A stretch of 24,474 nt of DNA, taken from a virus. The notes beneath the pieces were generated by a model. That model searched no databases and was not told the origin of the DNA. It saw nothing but the letters and a program-made list of their open reading frames with translations. Each line of letters opens with the position of its first letter. Position 1 is the first letter of the stretch. Shown here piece by piece: positions 6,596 through 15,577 of the stretch. The DNA lies in the IMG/VR virus record IMGVR_UViG_3300043395_000336, positions 1-24,474 of that record; one strand, written 5' to 3'. Position numbers and translations under genes: made by a program.

Positions 6596-8092
6596 ATGGC
6601 GGCAATAACTCTAAGGTCGGTCAAAGGCTCTCCGCTGACGAACGCGGAGCTTGACGCCAACTTCTCCAATCTCAATACGGAGCTGACTCAGAAGCTGAGT
6701 GAGGTCACGAGTGGCGTTATCACGAACGCCCTCGGATACACACCAGCGAACAAGGCTGGCGACACTTTCACCGGGCAGGTGAAGGTGGATAGCTCCGGCG
6801 CAAACTCGTCGTTCTTCGTCAACAGCGCCACGTCCAGCGGAAACATCACCCACCTAATCGCCAACACAACGCCGTTTAGTGGGAGCAATGGCGCTCTGAC
6901 TGGCACGCTGTTTGGAGTGCTGTCTCAGCCGACCATTAGCAACAGTGGATCTGGCGGGTCAAACTCCAACATTGCCTGGGGCGGCTACTTTGTTCCGCAG
7001 ATCGCCTCATCTGGCGCATCTGCCCCGGTCGTTCTGTATGGGGTGCAGGCGTTTGGTGAAAGGTCGAATGCAGGGGACACCTCAACAGCGAGCGCCAACA
7101 GTCTGTATGGTGGGTTCTTTACGGCCCGCCACACCGCCGCCATTAGCAATGGTGCATCCAGCCAAACCATCGCAGCGGTCAATGCTTCTGCAATTGTTCA
7201 GGGCGGGTCTGCCACGAACGTCTACGGAGTCTGGACAACCGGCAACATCGGGTCTTCTTCAGCCGTTACCAACAACGTTGTTGTAGCGAACTACTACCAG
7301 TTCTACGCCAATCCGGTCACGGTAGGGTCGAGTTCTGCTGGTGGAAGCGTAGGAACGATTGCCAACTTCTATGGCTTGTATCTGTCTGCGCCAAACGTCC
7401 AAAGCGGCGGCAGCATTTTGGGTCGTTACGGCATCTTCCAGGCTGACAGCGCGAGTCAGAACTTGCTATTTGGGTCACTTGAGGTCAACGGAGCGGTCAC
7501 TGTAGGCGGCACTCTGGGCGCAAGCCCTTTTAGGATCCCAGTTGGTAGCTCTGCAAACAGACCGACCAACCCAGTTGTCGGCCTGTTGCGCTACAACACA
7601 ACTACCGGCTCATACGAGGGTTATTACCCGAACGGCTGGGGCAATATCGGAGGCGGCGGGAGTGGTTCTAGTGGCGGAGCTAGTTCTGGCTACACGAGAG
7701 TCTTTGTTTACAACGGAACCACAACCAATAGCACGGAGACCGAGCTGTTTGTGGATGGCGCGTCCAATTCTCGCCTGACGGTTGGTGCCACGACTCGAAT
7801 AGTGGCGTATGTGGCTGAGTTTGTTGGCTACCGCAGCGACACGAACATCAGCTCCTCGACACCAAGAGACAGTGTCTACATAGTTGTTCGTGGCTCAGCG
7901 GAACTGATAGGCGGGGTGTTCTCTGACAAGGGCAATCTGTTCGAGCAGATTGTCGTGCGAGATGACGTTCTTGTCTCCGTTGACATCAGGTCTGTCTTTG
8001 AGTCGTTAAGTTCGTCGCTTCGAGTCTACGTGACTGGCCCCGCCTCGAAGACATACAGTTGGCGCGTCATTCTTTCTCTCAATGAGGTCTAG
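6596..8092 (+). CDS. Tail fibre or spike with classic N-terminal anchor
   Basis: This 498-residue fibre begins with ITLRSVKGSPLTNAELDANF (residues 4-23), an attachment motif found at the N-terminus of many tail fibres. An LGYTP-type motif (46-50) and TFTGQVKVDSSG (57-68) follow, also typical of fibre shafts. A long Gly/Ser/Asn-rich beta region (about 70-310) probably forms the trimeric body. At about 315-350 the segment SSANRPTNPVVGLLRYNT leads into YEGYYPNGWGNIGGG, a widespread fibre-tip module, followed by a Gly/Ser hinge. The final 140 residues form a separate beta-rich domain (VFVYNGTTT to YSWRVILSLNEV) that could be the receptor-binding head. No enzyme motif is visible. The stop at 8090-8092 lies two bases before the GTG start of the next gene. 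Confidence 0.82.
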   Translation: MAAITLRSVKGSPLTNAELDANFSNLNTELTQKLSEVTSGVITNALGYTPANKAGDTFTGQVKVDSSGANSSFFVNSATSSGNITHLIANTTPFSGSNGALTGTLFGVLSQPTISNSGSGGSNSNIAWGGYFVPQIASSGASAPVVLYGVQAFGERSNAGDTSTASANSLYGGFFTARHTAAISNGASSQTIAAVNASAIVQGGSATNVYGVWTTGNIGSSSAVTNNVVVANYYQFYANPVTVGSSSAGGSVGTIANFYGLYLSAPNVQSGGSILGRYGIFQADSASQNLLFGSLEVNGAVTVGGTLGASPFRIPVGSSANRPTNPVVGLLRYNTTTGSYEGYYPNGWGNIGGGGSGSSGGASSGYTRVFVYNGTTTNSTETELFVDGASNSRLTVGATTRIVAYVAEFVGYRSDTNISSSTPRDSVYIVVRGSAELIGGVFSDKGNLFEQIVVRDDVLVSVDIRSVFESLSSSLRVYVTGPASKTYSWRVILSLNEV

Positions 8093-10794: not shown

Positions 10795-11160
10795 ATGATT
10801 GGCGAATTGATTGCTCTACTCTTCCTGTCAAGAGACGTTGCTCATCGGGAACACCTGAAGGTGACCGGGCCGGGTAGCTACGCCGCGCATATCGCCCTCG
10901 GCAGCTTCTACGACGAGGTGGTTGATCTGGCGGACTCCCTGGCCGAGGCCTACCAGGGGCGCAACGGCATCATCGAAGACATCCCGTATCTGGACGCTGA
11001 CAAGGGGGAAGTCATCCCCGTCCTGGAGCAGCACCTCAAGTGGGTCGAAGACAATCGATTCGAAGCCGTCCCCAAAGAGGACACGGCCCTTCAGAACATC
11101 ATCGATGAGATCGTGGGTCTGTACCTGTCCACGCTCTACAAGCTGAAGAACCTGAAGTGA
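10795..11160 (+). CDS. Dps/ferritin-like four-helix protein (DUF5856 type)
   Basis: This 121-residue all-helical protein begins MIGELIALLFLSRDVAHREHL and matches the phage family I know as DUF5856. The residues H20, H32, D47 and E51 are spaced 12, 15 and 4. This is exactly the spacing of the Dps ferroxidase ligands (H31, H43, D58, E62 in Listeria innocua Dps; H51, H63, D78, E82 in E. coli). A glycine at H+5 (G25) and the LAE at 49-51 also match the Dps pattern. Predicted helices are 1-22, 29-54, 72-91 and 96-119, making a shortened four-helix bundle (Dps is usually 150-170 residues). A role in iron oxidation or peroxide removal is inferred; a purely structural use of the fold is the alternative. 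AGGTG (10785-10789) precedes the ATG. It sits between the fibre and lysis modules. Confidence 0.8.
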   Translation: MIGELIALLFLSRDVAHREHLKVTGPGSYAAHIALGSFYDEVVDLADSLAEAYQGRNGIIEDIPYLDADKGEVIPVLEQHLKWVEDNRFEAVPKEDTALQNIIDEIVGLYLSTLYKLKNLK

Positions 11161-11167
11161 GGGTGCA

Positions 11168-11455
11168 ATGGAAGGCAATGAGTTGACACCAATCCACACC
11201 GATTTCCGCCGACTGGAGGAGAAAGTGGACAAGCTCACTGATGCAGTGATGCGCCTTGTTCTGCTTGAGGAGCGCCAGTCGAACATGAATGAGCGGATCG
11301 GCGTGGCTGAGCAGCGTATCGCCAGCACGGAGACAGCCATCACCAAGGTGGACACCAAGGTCGAGCGGTGGATCAACCGTGGCATTGGTGCCTGGGCTGT
11401 GGCGGCTGTGCTGTTCACCCTGGTTCAGTTCGGCTCCAGCATCCTCAAGCAGTAG
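11168..11455 (+). CDS. XhlA-like coiled-coil membrane protein, possible lysis accessory
   Basis: This 95-residue protein has an N-terminal coiled coil (residues 12-66: FRRLEEKVDKLTDAVMRL, then LEERQSNMNERIGVAEQRI and TKVDTKVERW) and one C-terminal membrane span (about 72-90, GIGAWAVAAVLFTLVQFG). This is the plan of haemolysin XhlA family proteins, which act beside holins in several phages. The coiled coil is probably cytoplasmic. TGAGGG at 11158-11163 precedes ATG 11168. The stop TAG (11453-11455) overlaps the GTG of the next gene. It could be a holin regulator, an antiholin, or a membrane anchor unrelated to lysis. Confidence 0.7.
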   Translation: MEGNELTPIHTDFRRLEEKVDKLTDAVMRLVLLEERQSNMNERIGVAEQRIASTETAITKVDTKVERWINRGIGAWAVAAVLFTLVQFGSSILKQ

Positions 11456-11940
11456 TGGATCCGATCACCGCCTTCACCGTCGCGAGCACTGCGTTCGCCA
11501 CCGTCAAGAAGATGGTGGCTGCTGGCCGTGAGGTGCAGGACGTCGCTGGTCAGATCGGCAAATGGTTCGGAGCCGTCACCGAGTTCAACCGCTCGGTCAA
11601 CGTCCAGGCCAACAAGAAGCCGTCGATCTTCAAGCGAGTCCTGGACCAGGGGAGCATCGAGCAGCAGGCGCTCGAGATGACGATGCGTCGTCAGGCGATC
11701 CGCAAGCAGGAGTACGAACTCAAGATCCTCATCATCGCCAAGTACGGCGAGAACGTCTACAACGAGATGATGATGGATCGCATTCGGCTTCGGAAGGAGC
11801 AGGAGAAACGCGAGCGAGAACACGCCAAGCGCAGGGAAGACTTCCGGCTGAACGTGCTCTACGGCTCCGCCATTGCGGTGATGTCCGCCGCTGTGATCTG
11901 GCTCACGGTGTTCCTGTTCGACTATGCACAGAAGAAATGA
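11455..11940 (+). CDS. Conserved phage membrane protein, N-terminal MDPITAFTVAS, function unknown
   Basis: Translation from GTG 11455 gives 161 residues starting MDPITAFTVASTAFATVKKM, a beginning common to a conserved family of phage late proteins. This start overlaps the preceding stop by one base. A longer in-frame opening from 11368 would add Cys/Trp-rich residues lying over the previous gene and is rejected. The N-terminal 45 residues are amphipathic helix, residues 64-134 are a strongly charged helical region (RLRKEQEKREREHAKRRED), and 135-156 form one membrane span (SAIAVMSAAVIWLTVFLF). This is consistent with a membrane-anchored coiled coil. It lies in the lysis region, but a direct lysis role is not shown. 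Confidence 0.72.
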   Translation: MDPITAFTVASTAFATVKKMVAAGREVQDVAGQIGKWFGAVTEFNRSVNVQANKKPSIFKRVLDQGSIEQQALEMTMRRQAIRKQEYELKILIIAKYGENVYNEMMMDRIRLRKEQEKREREHAKRREDFRLNVLYGSAIAVMSAAVIWLTVFLFDYAQKK

Positions 11941-12747: not shown

Positions 12748-13452
12748 GTGTTGCGCTGGTTGCTGACCTCTCTGCTCGCCTTCGGGCTTGGTTGCGCCAG
12801 TTCGCAGCCGGTGGAGACGTTCATCCCCGAAAGGGCAAAGGAACACCTCCCGACGCTCAGCGCCCAGGTCAAGGACGTCTGGCCTACGATGCCCACGCCG
12901 AACTACTTCGCGGCCCTGATCGAGCACGAAAGCTGTATCAGTCTCAAGCACTCCCGGTGCTGGGCACCAACTTCTCGGCTGAAGTCTGACCGGGAGGAGG
13001 GTGCTGGATTGGGTCAGTTGACTCGCGCATTCAACCAGGACGGCAGCGTCCGGTTCGACGCCTTGGCCGACAGCCGCCGCCTGGATCCCCGTGGGCTCAA
13101 CGAGCTGCGCTGGGAGACGGTTTACCAGCGTCCTGACCTCCAGATGCGGGTGATCGTCCTGATGACCAGGGATGCCTACAACCGGCTGGTCAAGCTGGTG
13201 CCGGATCACTTGCCCAGGCTGGCTATGGCTGATGCCGCCTACAACGGCGGGATCGGTGGCCTGCTCAACGAGCGCCGTGCCTGCGGTCTGAAGTCCGGAT
13301 GCAACCCGAACGTCTGGTTTGGCAACGTCGAGCACACCTGCCTGAAGTCCACCAAGCCGCTGTACGGCAACCGCAGTGCCTGCGACATCAATAGACACCA
13401 TGTACACGATGTCCTGCTGACCAGGATGCCGAAGTACCAGGGGAAGGTCTGA
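12748..13452 (+). CDS. Exported lytic transglycosylase endolysin
   Basis: This 234-residue protein starts at GTG 12748 after AGAGGTG. It cleaves peptidoglycan glycan strands by inference from its SLT-type motifs: IEHESC (58-63, catalytic Glu most likely E61), GLGQLT (87-92) and AYNGG (164-168). The rest of the domain, with ACGLKSGCNPNVWFGNVEHT and DINRHHVHDVLL, fits phage lysins of this transglycosylase group. The N-terminus MLRWLLTSLLAFGLGCASS is a basic-hydrophobic signal ending in Cys16, suggesting export and possibly lipidation; the lipobox is imperfect (GLGC). Besides C16 there are six cysteines (63, 71, 179, 185, 198, 212), enough for three disulfides in the periplasm. The stop overlaps the Rz start by one base. 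Confidence 0.85.
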   Translation: MLRWLLTSLLAFGLGCASSQPVETFIPERAKEHLPTLSAQVKDVWPTMPTPNYFAALIEHESCISLKHSRCWAPTSRLKSDREEGAGLGQLTRAFNQDGSVRFDALADSRRLDPRGLNELRWETVYQRPDLQMRVIVLMTRDAYNRLVKLVPDHLPRLAMADAAYNGGIGGLLNERRACGLKSGCNPNVWFGNVEHTCLKSTKPLYGNRSACDINRHHVHDVLLTRMPKYQGKV

Positions 13453-13943
13453 TGCTGAAGATCCTGGATCTGGTTCCTAGCTGGGTATGGGCGGCGCTGG
13501 TCGCCCTTTTCGCGTTACTGGCCGGGATCTCCTACGTTCGGATGCACAGCGCGAAGGCCGAGCTGGCGGACTACCGCGCAGAGGTCGCAGAAAATACACG
13601 CCGAGCTGAGGCTGAGGCTCGAGCCAAAGAACAAGCAATGCGTCAGCAAGCTGAAAGGGTCTCCAATGAGCAAGCACAGAAGCAGGAAGTTCTCAATCGC
13701 CGGATTGCTGCTACTGAGTCTGTTGCAAGCAGCCTGCGCGACCAGATCCTCCGACTCAATTCCGGTACAGCCCCCACAGACCCCGAGTCTGCCGCCCTCT
13801 TTGAGCAAGCCCGTACCGCAAGAGAGCTTCTTGGAGCGTGCGCAGGCAGATATACGGACGTGGCTCGATCGGCTGACCAACTCAGAGACCAAGTGAGCGG
13901 GCTGCAAGACTTCGTCGGCAGCGTCTGTCACGCAGCAAAGTAG
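13452..13943 (+). CDS. Rz: Rz-like inner-membrane spanin
   Basis: This 163-residue protein has one N-terminal membrane span (about 11-29, WVWAALVALFALLAGISYV) followed by a long charged helix (32-100, for example AELADYRAEVAENTRRAEAE) and a helical C-terminal part. This is the architecture of i-spanins, which stay in the inner membrane and reach across the periplasm to the outer-membrane partner, fusing the two membranes in the last step of lysis. ATG 13452 overlaps the lysin stop. The partner gene lies entirely inside this gene in another frame. Two cysteines occur in the C-terminal third (LLGACAGRY and GSVCHAAK). The stop TAG at 13941-13943 contributes to the ribosome site of the next gene. 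Confidence 0.85.
   Translation: MLKILDLVPSWVWAALVALFALLAGISYVRMHSAKAELADYRAEVAENTRRAEAEARAKEQAMRQQAERVSNEQAQKQEVLNRRIAATESVASSLRDQILRLNSGTAPTDPESAALFEQARTARELLGACAGRYTDVARSADQLRDQVSGLQDFVGSVCHAAK
13666..13896 (+). CDS. Rz1: Rz1-like outer-membrane lipoprotein spanin, embedded in Rz
   Basis: This 76-residue reading frame lies wholly inside the Rz gene in the +1 frame. It has a basic start (MSKHRSRKF), a hydrophobic stretch (SIAGLLLLSLLQAAC) ending at Cys24 as a lipobox-like site, and a proline-rich mature part (IPVQPPQTPSLPPSLSKPVP). These are the hallmarks of Rz1 o-spanins, which are lipidated and held at the outer membrane to complex with Rz. The mature protein would be about 53 residues, within the usual range. 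AAAGGGT just upstream (13656-13662) can serve as its ribosome site. Two-component spanins with the outer gene fully nested are known from lambda-type phages. Confidence 0.85.
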   Translation: MSKHRSRKFSIAGLLLLSLLQAACATRSSDSIPVQPPQTPSLPPSLSKPVPQESFLERAQADIRTWLDRLTNSETK

Positions 13944-13951
13944 GGCACCAC

Positions 13952-15577
13952 ATGGCACTGATCGGAATCAAGGGCTTCAACGGCATGAAGCCGATCTCCA
14001 ACCCAATCCTCTTGGATTCGGGTGAGGCGCAGCTTGCCCGTAACGTCAAGCTGATCTCCGGTGCCATCTCTGCGCTCAAGGGCACGACCACTCTCAAGGC
14101 CACCACCTCTGCCTCGCCGCAGACGATCTACCGCTACGGCACCAGCGCGACGGAGACCAACTACTGGCTCGAGTTCCCTGGTGATGTGGATGTCGTGCGC
14201 TCACCGATCGTGGCCGATCAGTACGATCGCCTGTATTGGACTGACGGTGTAGCTCCTCGCTACTCGCCCAACAACCTGATCTTGTCTGGCGCGAGCTATC
14301 CGGGGGCGTCATACCTGCTGGGCATCCCGAAGCCAACGACGGCTCCCACGGTCACGGCATCTACCGCTCCGACGGAAGCTGTTCACACCGAGAGCCGCAC
14401 CTACGTCATCACGTACGTGTCCGCGTTCGGCGAAGAAGGGCCTCCGTCCAACGCCTCTGCTGTTGTCTCGATCAACAACACCCAGCCGGTCACGGTCAGC
14501 ATCCCGGGCAACCCAGGTGGCAACCGCAACCTGACGCTCAAGCGGATCTACCGCTCTTCGGCTACTGGCGCTCAGGCGTACTTCCAGTTCGTGGCTGAGG
14601 TTCCGATCGCCACGACGAGCTACACCGACAGCAAGACTCAGGCAAGCCTGGGAGAAGTACTCGGCACAGAGGACTGGGTAGAGCCTCCTGCTGGCCTGAA
14701 GGGGCTGCGGATGATGGCCAACGGCGTGGCTGTTGGCTTTGTCGGCAACACCGTCTACATGTCCGAGCCGTACCTGCCTCATGCCTGGCCGCATGAGTAC
14801 CCGGTGGATGCTGACATCGTGGGCCTTGGCACCTTCGGTCAGACGGTTGTGGTGCTGACCAGAACCTTCCCGTATCTGCTGCAAGGCGTGGATCCGTCGG
14901 CCATGTCCACGACCAAGATGGAGCTGCGGCAAGCCTGCGTCTCCAAGCGATCGATCGTGGAGACCGGTGACGGCGTGATGTACGCATCGCCTGATGGCCT
15001 GGTGTCGATCGGCGGCAGCGGTGTCCAGGTGGTCACCCAGAACATCCTGTCGCGGGAGCAGTGGCAAGCCTACAAGCCGGACTCGATCCTGGCCTTCCTC
15101 TACAACGGAAGGTGGCATGGGTTCTACAACACCGGCTCTGAGCGTGGCCTGCTGATCTTCGACTTCACCGGTCAGGGCGCGTACATGACCGTGTCAGACC
15201 TTGGGTCTGGCGGAGCTCAGCCGATCGTCTCTGGCTTCCAGGATGCGTCTACGGACACCCTGTACCTGGTGCAGGGGGCGAACATTGTTCGCTTCGATGC
15301 CGGGACAAACCTGCCGTACCTGTGGCGCTCGAAGGTCTTCCGCGCCCCGCAGCATGTGAACTTCTCTGTGGCTCAGGTTCGAGCCTCGGCCTATCCGGTG
15401 CAGTTGAAGGTCTATGCGGATGGCGCTCTCAAGCTGACGAAGAGCGTGGCGTCAGAGGCTCATTTTCGTTTGCCAGCCGGGTTCAAGGCCCTGGACTGGT
15501 ACGTGGAGATCGAGGGCACAACTGATGTGACCGAGTTCTACATGGCGACGTCTGTTGCGGAGCTGATGCAGGTATGA
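13952..15577 (+). CDS. Tail nozzle/hub-like beta-rich structural protein
   Basis: This 541-residue protein starts at ATG 13952, with TAGGG at 13941-13945 as ribosome site. Its start, GIKGFNGMKPISNP followed by SGEAQLARNVKLISGAISAL, resembles the opening of beta-propeller-like podovirus tail proteins, where an Ala/Asn-Val motif precedes a G-x-L/I start. Residues about 130-225 form an Fn3-like insertion (ESRTYVITYVSAFGEEGPPS ... LKRIYRSSATGAQAYFQFV). Later segments alternate Gly turns and strands (GNTVYMSEPYLPHAWPHEYP, GDGVMYASPDGLVSIGG, YNGRWHGFYNTG), as in propeller blades. A role as the distal tail tube, like T7 gp12, is my inference; no direct homology can be shown here. The stop overlaps the next start (ATGA). 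Confidence 0.65.
   Translation: MALIGIKGFNGMKPISNPILLDSGEAQLARNVKLISGAISALKGTTTLKATTSASPQTIYRYGTSATETNYWLEFPGDVDVVRSPIVADQYDRLYWTDGVAPRYSPNNLILSGASYPGASYLLGIPKPTTAPTVTASTAPTEAVHTESRTYVITYVSAFGEEGPPSNASAVVSINNTQPVTVSIPGNPGGNRNLTLKRIYRSSATGAQAYFQFVAEVPIATTSYTDSKTQASLGEVLGTEDWVEPPAGLKGLRMMANGVAVGFVGNTVYMSEPYLPHAWPHEYPVDADIVGLGTFGQTVVVLTRTFPYLLQGVDPSAMSTTKMELRQACVSKRSIVETGDGVMYASPDGLVSIGGSGVQVVTQNILSREQWQAYKPDSILAFLYNGRWHGFYNTGSERGLLIFDFTGQGAYMTVSDLGSGGAQPIVSGFQDASTDTLYLVQGANIVRFDAGTNLPYLWRSKVFRAPQHVNFSVAQVRASAYPVQLKVYADGALKLTKSVASEAHFRLPAGFKALDWYVEIEGTTDVTEFYMATSVAELMQV

Follow-up and report, generated by a model that had tools for sequence, protein, structure and literature searches.

The phage protein family DUF5856, which includes T4 RI.-1, shares the four iron ligands of Dps and probably represents a minimal mini-ferritin

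The window, i.e., the whole 24,474-base stretch of DNA that was analysed, is a virus record whose + strand carries genes for capsid, tail, lysis and internal virion proteins. The gene considered here opens with an ATG start codon, 8 bases after the stop of the preceding frame, and sits among late (virion and lysis) genes. Downstream, with other frames interspersed, come genes resembling those for a holin (a weak match), an endolysin and a spanin, and one for an internal virion protein:

10795–11160, + strand: DUF5856 gene, 121 residues, coding for a Dps-like four-helix protein (Pfam DUF5856, PHROG 858, structural model)
11168–11455, + strand: small holin/XhlA-like protein, a weak assignment (PHROG 1193 'hemolysin', E = 2.7e-4; Pfam XhlA, E = 0.039, below the cut-off)
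12748–13452, + strand: endolysin-like gene (PHROG 669 'endolysin', E = 1e-11)
13452–13943, + strand: Rz-like spanin (PHROG 312, E = 8.7e-11)
13952–15577, + strand: internal virion protein (PHROG 511, E = 7.1e-158)

At 11368–11940, a frame of 190 residues that starts with GTG extends across the end of the holin-like frame; its match is PHROG 32327, a group of unknown function (E = 1.7e-8). Between positions 8000 and 14000, no promoter was found (2.2 in shuffled sequence), and the four terminators found there are no excess over shuffles (4.3).

The 121-residue protein belongs to Pfam DUF5856 (PF19174; E = 1.9e-16, 61.3 bits against a cut-off of 34.6), a family for which Pfam gives no function, and to PHROG 858 (E = 3.1e-20, residues 3–120), named 'starvation-inducible transcriptional regulator', a name that RefSeq records carry as well. 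It is matched by tblastn (E up to 1) in 697 of 50,697 phage records, 638 of them covering at least 80% of the query. The Pfam Ferritin profile (PF00210), which matched 14/14 control genomes, found neither the protein nor anything else in its record, and matches a single one of 28 DUF5856 members (E = 0.0016). The DUF5856 profile itself gave a hit below cut-off in one of the 14 control genomes, that of B. subtilis. Neither the window protein nor T4 RI.-1 has a match in NCBIfam, whose Dps models weakly match three of the five proteins scanned (E = 0.012–0.087). A pattern scan of a collection of bacterial and archaeal genomes produced 148 pattern matches and no cellular relative, and at the sensitivity of such a scan the family looks confined to phages. 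The family itself and its Dps-derived name are already known, in PHROGs and in some records; for instance, the record of Dickeya phage PP35 annotates a member as 'putative starvation-induced DNA protecting protein'. Among the papers searched, none names DUF5856 and none, in the text seen, treats the family as a mini-ferritin. What the present analysis adds is the invariance of the ligands, the structural evidence, the placing of T4 RI.-1 in the family and the connection with virion data.

An earlier note on this DNA, made from the sequence, had pointed to H20, H32, D47 and E51 of the protein as a quartet with the exact spacing of the Dps iron ligands. These positions and their gaps (12, 15 and 4) are confirmed in the translation, and so are the accompanying features it listed: a glycine five residues after the first His (G25), the aromatic pair F38-Y39 after H32, and A50-E51 at the last ligand. 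The same gaps occur in five Dps proteins, where the quartet is invariant in 5/5 (H51, H63, D78 and E82 in E. coli). The corresponding codons are:

10843–10845, + strand: H17, a conserved extra His (68/71 non-redundant members)
10852–10854, + strand: H20, first ligand (71/71; aligned to E. coli Dps H51)
10867–10875, + strand: G25-P26-G27, helix A–B loop giving the His–His gap of 12 (gap 12 in 12/71)
10888–10890, + strand: H32, second ligand (71/71; aligned to E. coli Dps H63)
10933–10935, + strand: D47, third ligand (71/71; aligned to E. coli Dps D78)
10945–10947, + strand: E51, fourth ligand (71/71; aligned to E. coli Dps E82)

Family-wide conservation was assessed on 234 loci (numbered with an L) gathered from the window, IMG/VR contigs and phage records, of which L102 was left out of the count because of unreadable bases, the remaining 233 being reduced to 71 at 85% identity. 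In this set, which leans towards conserved ligands since the IMG/VR contig loci were found by short peptide patterns, some including ligand residues, just four columns, H20, H32, D47 and E51, are invariant across the 71 non-redundant members, followed by Y39, G55 and L117 (69/71 each) and H17. Conservation of the quartet among relatives had been named beforehand as a test able to refute the proposal, and the outcome is that every one of the 71 keeps all four. A separate, diverse alignment of 28 members, 18 of which came from phage records through tblastn and hence free of patterns, has the same four invariant columns plus H17. The extra His and all four ligands occur together in 225 of the 233 members. 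Among the 71, H17 is replaced (by R or Q) solely in L126, L132 and L134, which retain the four ligands.

The spacing is less uniform than the residues. The His–His gap is 9 in 57 of the 71 members, 12 in 12 and 13 in two; the His–Asp gap is 15 in 68 and 14 in three; and the Asp–Glu gap is 4 in 71/71. The exact Dps spacing thus holds for the window protein but not for the family, most of which has the shorter His–His gap. Since the gap-12 form turns up in members far apart from one another (the window clade, RB49 and the L101 group) and resembles the Dps loop, it may be the older state. Of 100,000 shuffled versions of the protein, 60 contain the spaced motif, which occurs once among the 247 stop-to-stop frames of at least 50 residues in the window; the conservation of the four residues is stronger evidence than their spacing.

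That DUF5856 proteins are related to Dps, as the earlier note proposed, is extremely likely, ligand invariance being joined by a profile search of PDB sequences, profile–profile comparison, cross-matches between PHROGs, and comparison of structures. When PDB sequences are searched with the 28-member profile, the first rows are Dps-family proteins (S. aureus Dps, E = 7.9e-7; MrgA, 2.1e-6; Dlp-2, 1.2e-5), with the ligands in register. In hhalign, comparison with the five Dps proteins gives a probability of 78.2 (E = 1.8e-5, 58 columns) and with E. coli Dps alone 39.2% (E = 3.1e-4), against 0.2 (E = 0.31) for a control with the RI family, taken as unrelated. E. coli Dps is assigned to PHROG 3636 (E = 3.5e-27), which is also matched by 18 of the 28 DUF5856 members (best E = 8.2e-7, with hits up to E = 1 counted); PHROG 858, in turn, is matched by the Dps of a Streptomyces phage (E = 3.4e-5). 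When four DUF5856 proteins and four Dps proteins are aligned jointly, the four ligands are the only invariant columns. Most of the match falls in helices A and B. Compared with Dps (E. coli Dps, B. subtilis MrgA), the H/H/D/E ligands are in register and the four-helix fold extends along the entire chain, whereas the stretch between the two His is three residues shorter in most members and the second half is too diverged for sequence alignment. The protein is also shorter than Dps, as had been remarked (121 residues versus 167 in E. coli Dps).

AlphaFold2, run for a single chain on 49 sequences (the window protein and 48 of 50 eligible relatives, two with GTG or TTG starts being excluded), predicts a four-helix bundle (pLDDT 96.4, pTM 0.90) with helices at residues 2–22, 28–57, 73–91 and 97–119. 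The expectation that part of helix A had been lost is contradicted by this model, in which helix A occupies residues 2–22. VIA-align superposes the model on M. smegmatis Dps2 (Z = 14.4, 119 residues aligned, 2.3 Å), and 38 of its 50 rows are Dps, including a Dps chimera and Dps-like proteins, the remainder being other ferritin-like proteins, which score near Dps in fold comparison; helical bundles often score high Z, and this similarity is supportive rather than decisive. The best rows of a Foldseek search against the PDB are likewise Dps, with modest E-values (best 1.7e-2; none at or below 0.001). A short helix in the B–C loop is a hallmark of Dps, and as the model has no helix in the B–C linker (58–72), the protein is classed as Dps-like and not as canonical Dps. 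The basic N-terminal DNA-binding tail, which not every Dps possesses, is missing as well, helix A starting at residue 2. Given this and its acidity (pI 4.67, net charge −10), the protein is unlikely to bind DNA in the manner of E. coli Dps.

In Dps, the ferroxidase site forms between two chains at the twofold axis. The model places H32 and D47/E51 on one continuous helix (28–57), 15 and 19 residues apart, which from helix geometry corresponds to an estimated 22–28 Å, too far for a single chain to bring all four ligands to one metal. The conservation of all four despite this distance argues for a Dps-like dimer, and a two-chain iron site of this type is probable on the predicted structure.

In BFVD, the model also matches two proteins labelled 'Prohead protease', A0A6J7WIS1 (432 residues) and A0A6J7XDU5 (333 residues), one ParB/sulfiredoxin protein and one NUDIX protein (TM by query 0.65–0.79 for these matches). 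These matches suggest that some enzymes of phages, for capsid assembly or other tasks, carry a fused Dps-like domain.

Clustering of the neighbours of the 71 loci, based on a crude gene caller, revealed no single conserved neighbourhood. The clusters that keep a steady place are portal-type genes (9/71), head–tail adaptor genes (7/71) and rI (6/71). The portal-type gene, a label taken from the annotation of one member (L082), lies directly before the DUF5856 gene in all nine of its loci, while the adaptor gene lies directly before it in six and second in one; lysis genes adjoin it in some loci.

The suggestion that the protein may be a virion component derived from ferritin is favoured by mass spectrometry of virion preparations, all of them from phages of two families other than that of the window phage. 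In LIMEstone1, ORF78, an 'unknown structural protein' of 13.15 kDa, was found in a virion preparation with three unique peptides and 28.21% coverage, according to the available part of the report (PMC3296691). The DUF5856 protein encoded by DNA identical to the LIMEstone1 stretch has 117 residues and a mass of 13.15 kDa, and 28.21% of 117 is 33.0; from mass, coverage, annotation and the identical DNA, we take ORF78 to be the DUF5856 gene. The corresponding gene in the Vi01 record is Vi01_092c. For the Klebsiella phages ValerieMcCarty03/04, the accessible text of PMC13119998 gives 26/27 spectra for gp108/gp100 from CsCl virions, along with similar counts for RNA ligase (18/17) and DNA helicase (8/17) in the same virions, so that contamination is possible; gp108, the one of the two that was checked, is a confirmed DUF5856 protein with all ligands. 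In the portions available of the reports on RaK2 (PMC3622015) and EspM4VN, the relative is absent from the virion proteins listed. Proteins called Dps by their own authors are also encoded by other phages, as described in parts of the respective papers: a Dps-domain protein of the podophage Privateer was detected in CsCl-purified virions (PMC7881722), one of the podophage SU10, at 21.2 kDa larger than the DUF5856 protein, in a PEG-only preparation (PMC4281155), and Dps proteins of gut and Lactobacillus phages have been named in print (PMC8008677). Like the present family, they are Dps relatives encoded by phages. On balance, the chances that DUF5856 proteins are virion-borne in several lineages are even, and for the window phage they fall somewhat short of that.

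T4 RI.-1 (MobD.6) is a member of the family (DUF5856, E = 5e-33; PHROG 858, E = 9.1e-55):

320–706 of locus L106: T4 rI.-1, a DUF5856 member

Its ligands H33, H42, D57 and E61 are invariant in a 50-row alignment. RI.-1 resembles the window protein in having the four ligands and the extra His, and differs from it in its His–His gap of 9, its short N-terminal extension and the position of its gene beside rI. The model, obtained for an identical IMG/VR copy, is ferritin-like (pLDDT 91.4) and superposes on Dps2 with Z = 14.4 (117 aligned, 2.2 Å), rows of the YciF type being nearly tied; Foldseek matches are weaker, with a two-domain ferritin-like protein as top row. In all six T4-type loci examined (L106, L084, L096, L097, L098 and L103), the DUF5856 gene adjoins a gene annotated as rI or lysis inhibition. 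The T-even gene has been studied for lysis inhibition and not for oxidants. Its over-expression from a plasmid slightly prolonged lysis inhibition (Golec et al. 2010, as reviewed in the available part of PMC6832632), and a 2019 review calls the part of RI.-1 in this process undefined.

Taken together, these results point to a phage-specific, minimal Dps-like mini-ferritin, a reading to which we assign a probability of roughly 0.62, leaving aside whether the protein enters the virion. Binding of a metal at the four-residue site is very likely, and oxidation of iron by the protein is probable.

Other readings deserve weighing against the mini-ferritin. It is unlikely, though worth retaining, that the two-chain site of Dps type persists in a structural role, with Zn, Mn or Fe bound, in a non-catalytic protein serving as a minor part of the virion or of its assembly: invariance of the ligands requires metal binding only, members do appear in virion preparations, and portal-type and head–tail adaptor genes are among the neighbours, but the four ligands are those found at the ferroxidase site of Dps, and the neighbours vary among phages, unlike those of a fixed structural part. 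A role as an accessory of lysis timing, in which the protein would act with RI, RIII and the holin, its metal site perhaps serving as a sensor of iron or oxidants, is quite improbable. The membership of T4 RI.-1, the rI-type neighbour in 6/6 T4-type loci, the effect of over-expression on lysis inhibition (PMC6832632, in part) and the lysis genes that follow the DUF5856 gene in the window speak for it; yet that effect was slight and came from a plasmid, a gene of rI type adjoins in only 6/71 loci, and RaK2 has a DUF5856 gene while reportedly, in the part of PMC3622015 available, being without T holin, RI, RI.1 and RIII.

Far less probable still is the DNA-binding transcription regulator that the name in PHROG 858 and RefSeq records would imply; the name can be explained as a transfer from Dps annotation, and a regulator taken from a database name is unsupported for a protein that is acidic and has no basic N-terminal tail. 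Least credible is chance, i.e., a four-helix bundle in which H, H, D and E merely happen to have this spacing. The motif does turn up in some shuffles, and fold matches are common among helical bundles, but the columns invariant in 71/71 are exactly the four ligands, and the family profile finds Dps at E = 7.9e-7 in an alignment that keeps the ligands in register; on this conservation and profile evidence, a chance match is rejected.

If the DUF5856 protein is indeed a mini-ferritin, two chains would pair as in Dps and hold Fe(II) between them, one contributing H20 and H32, the other D47 and E51. The iron would be oxidised by H2O2 or O2 and then retained, so that Fenton chemistry would be starved of its fuel. 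The likeliest role would be to shield phage DNA, while the particle assembles or enters, from damage by iron and peroxide. A more far-reaching scenario, which appears rather unlikely at present, is that a phage-only branch of Dps, T4 included, constitutes a virion-borne, iron-oxidising dimer or cage that in T-even phages couples iron or oxidants to lysis timing via rI.

The Dps iron ligands, as the sole invariant residues of the family, lend themselves to a cheap and direct test of function by iron oxidation and ligand mutants, and this functional lead extends to a family with matches in several hundred phage records, to which rI.-1, an accessory gene of T4, belongs. Were the protein an active virion-borne ferroxidase, the particle itself would be protected against iron and peroxide; and if the more far-reaching scenario is true, the protein may enter the cell together with the DNA, such that phages would bring their own antioxidant.
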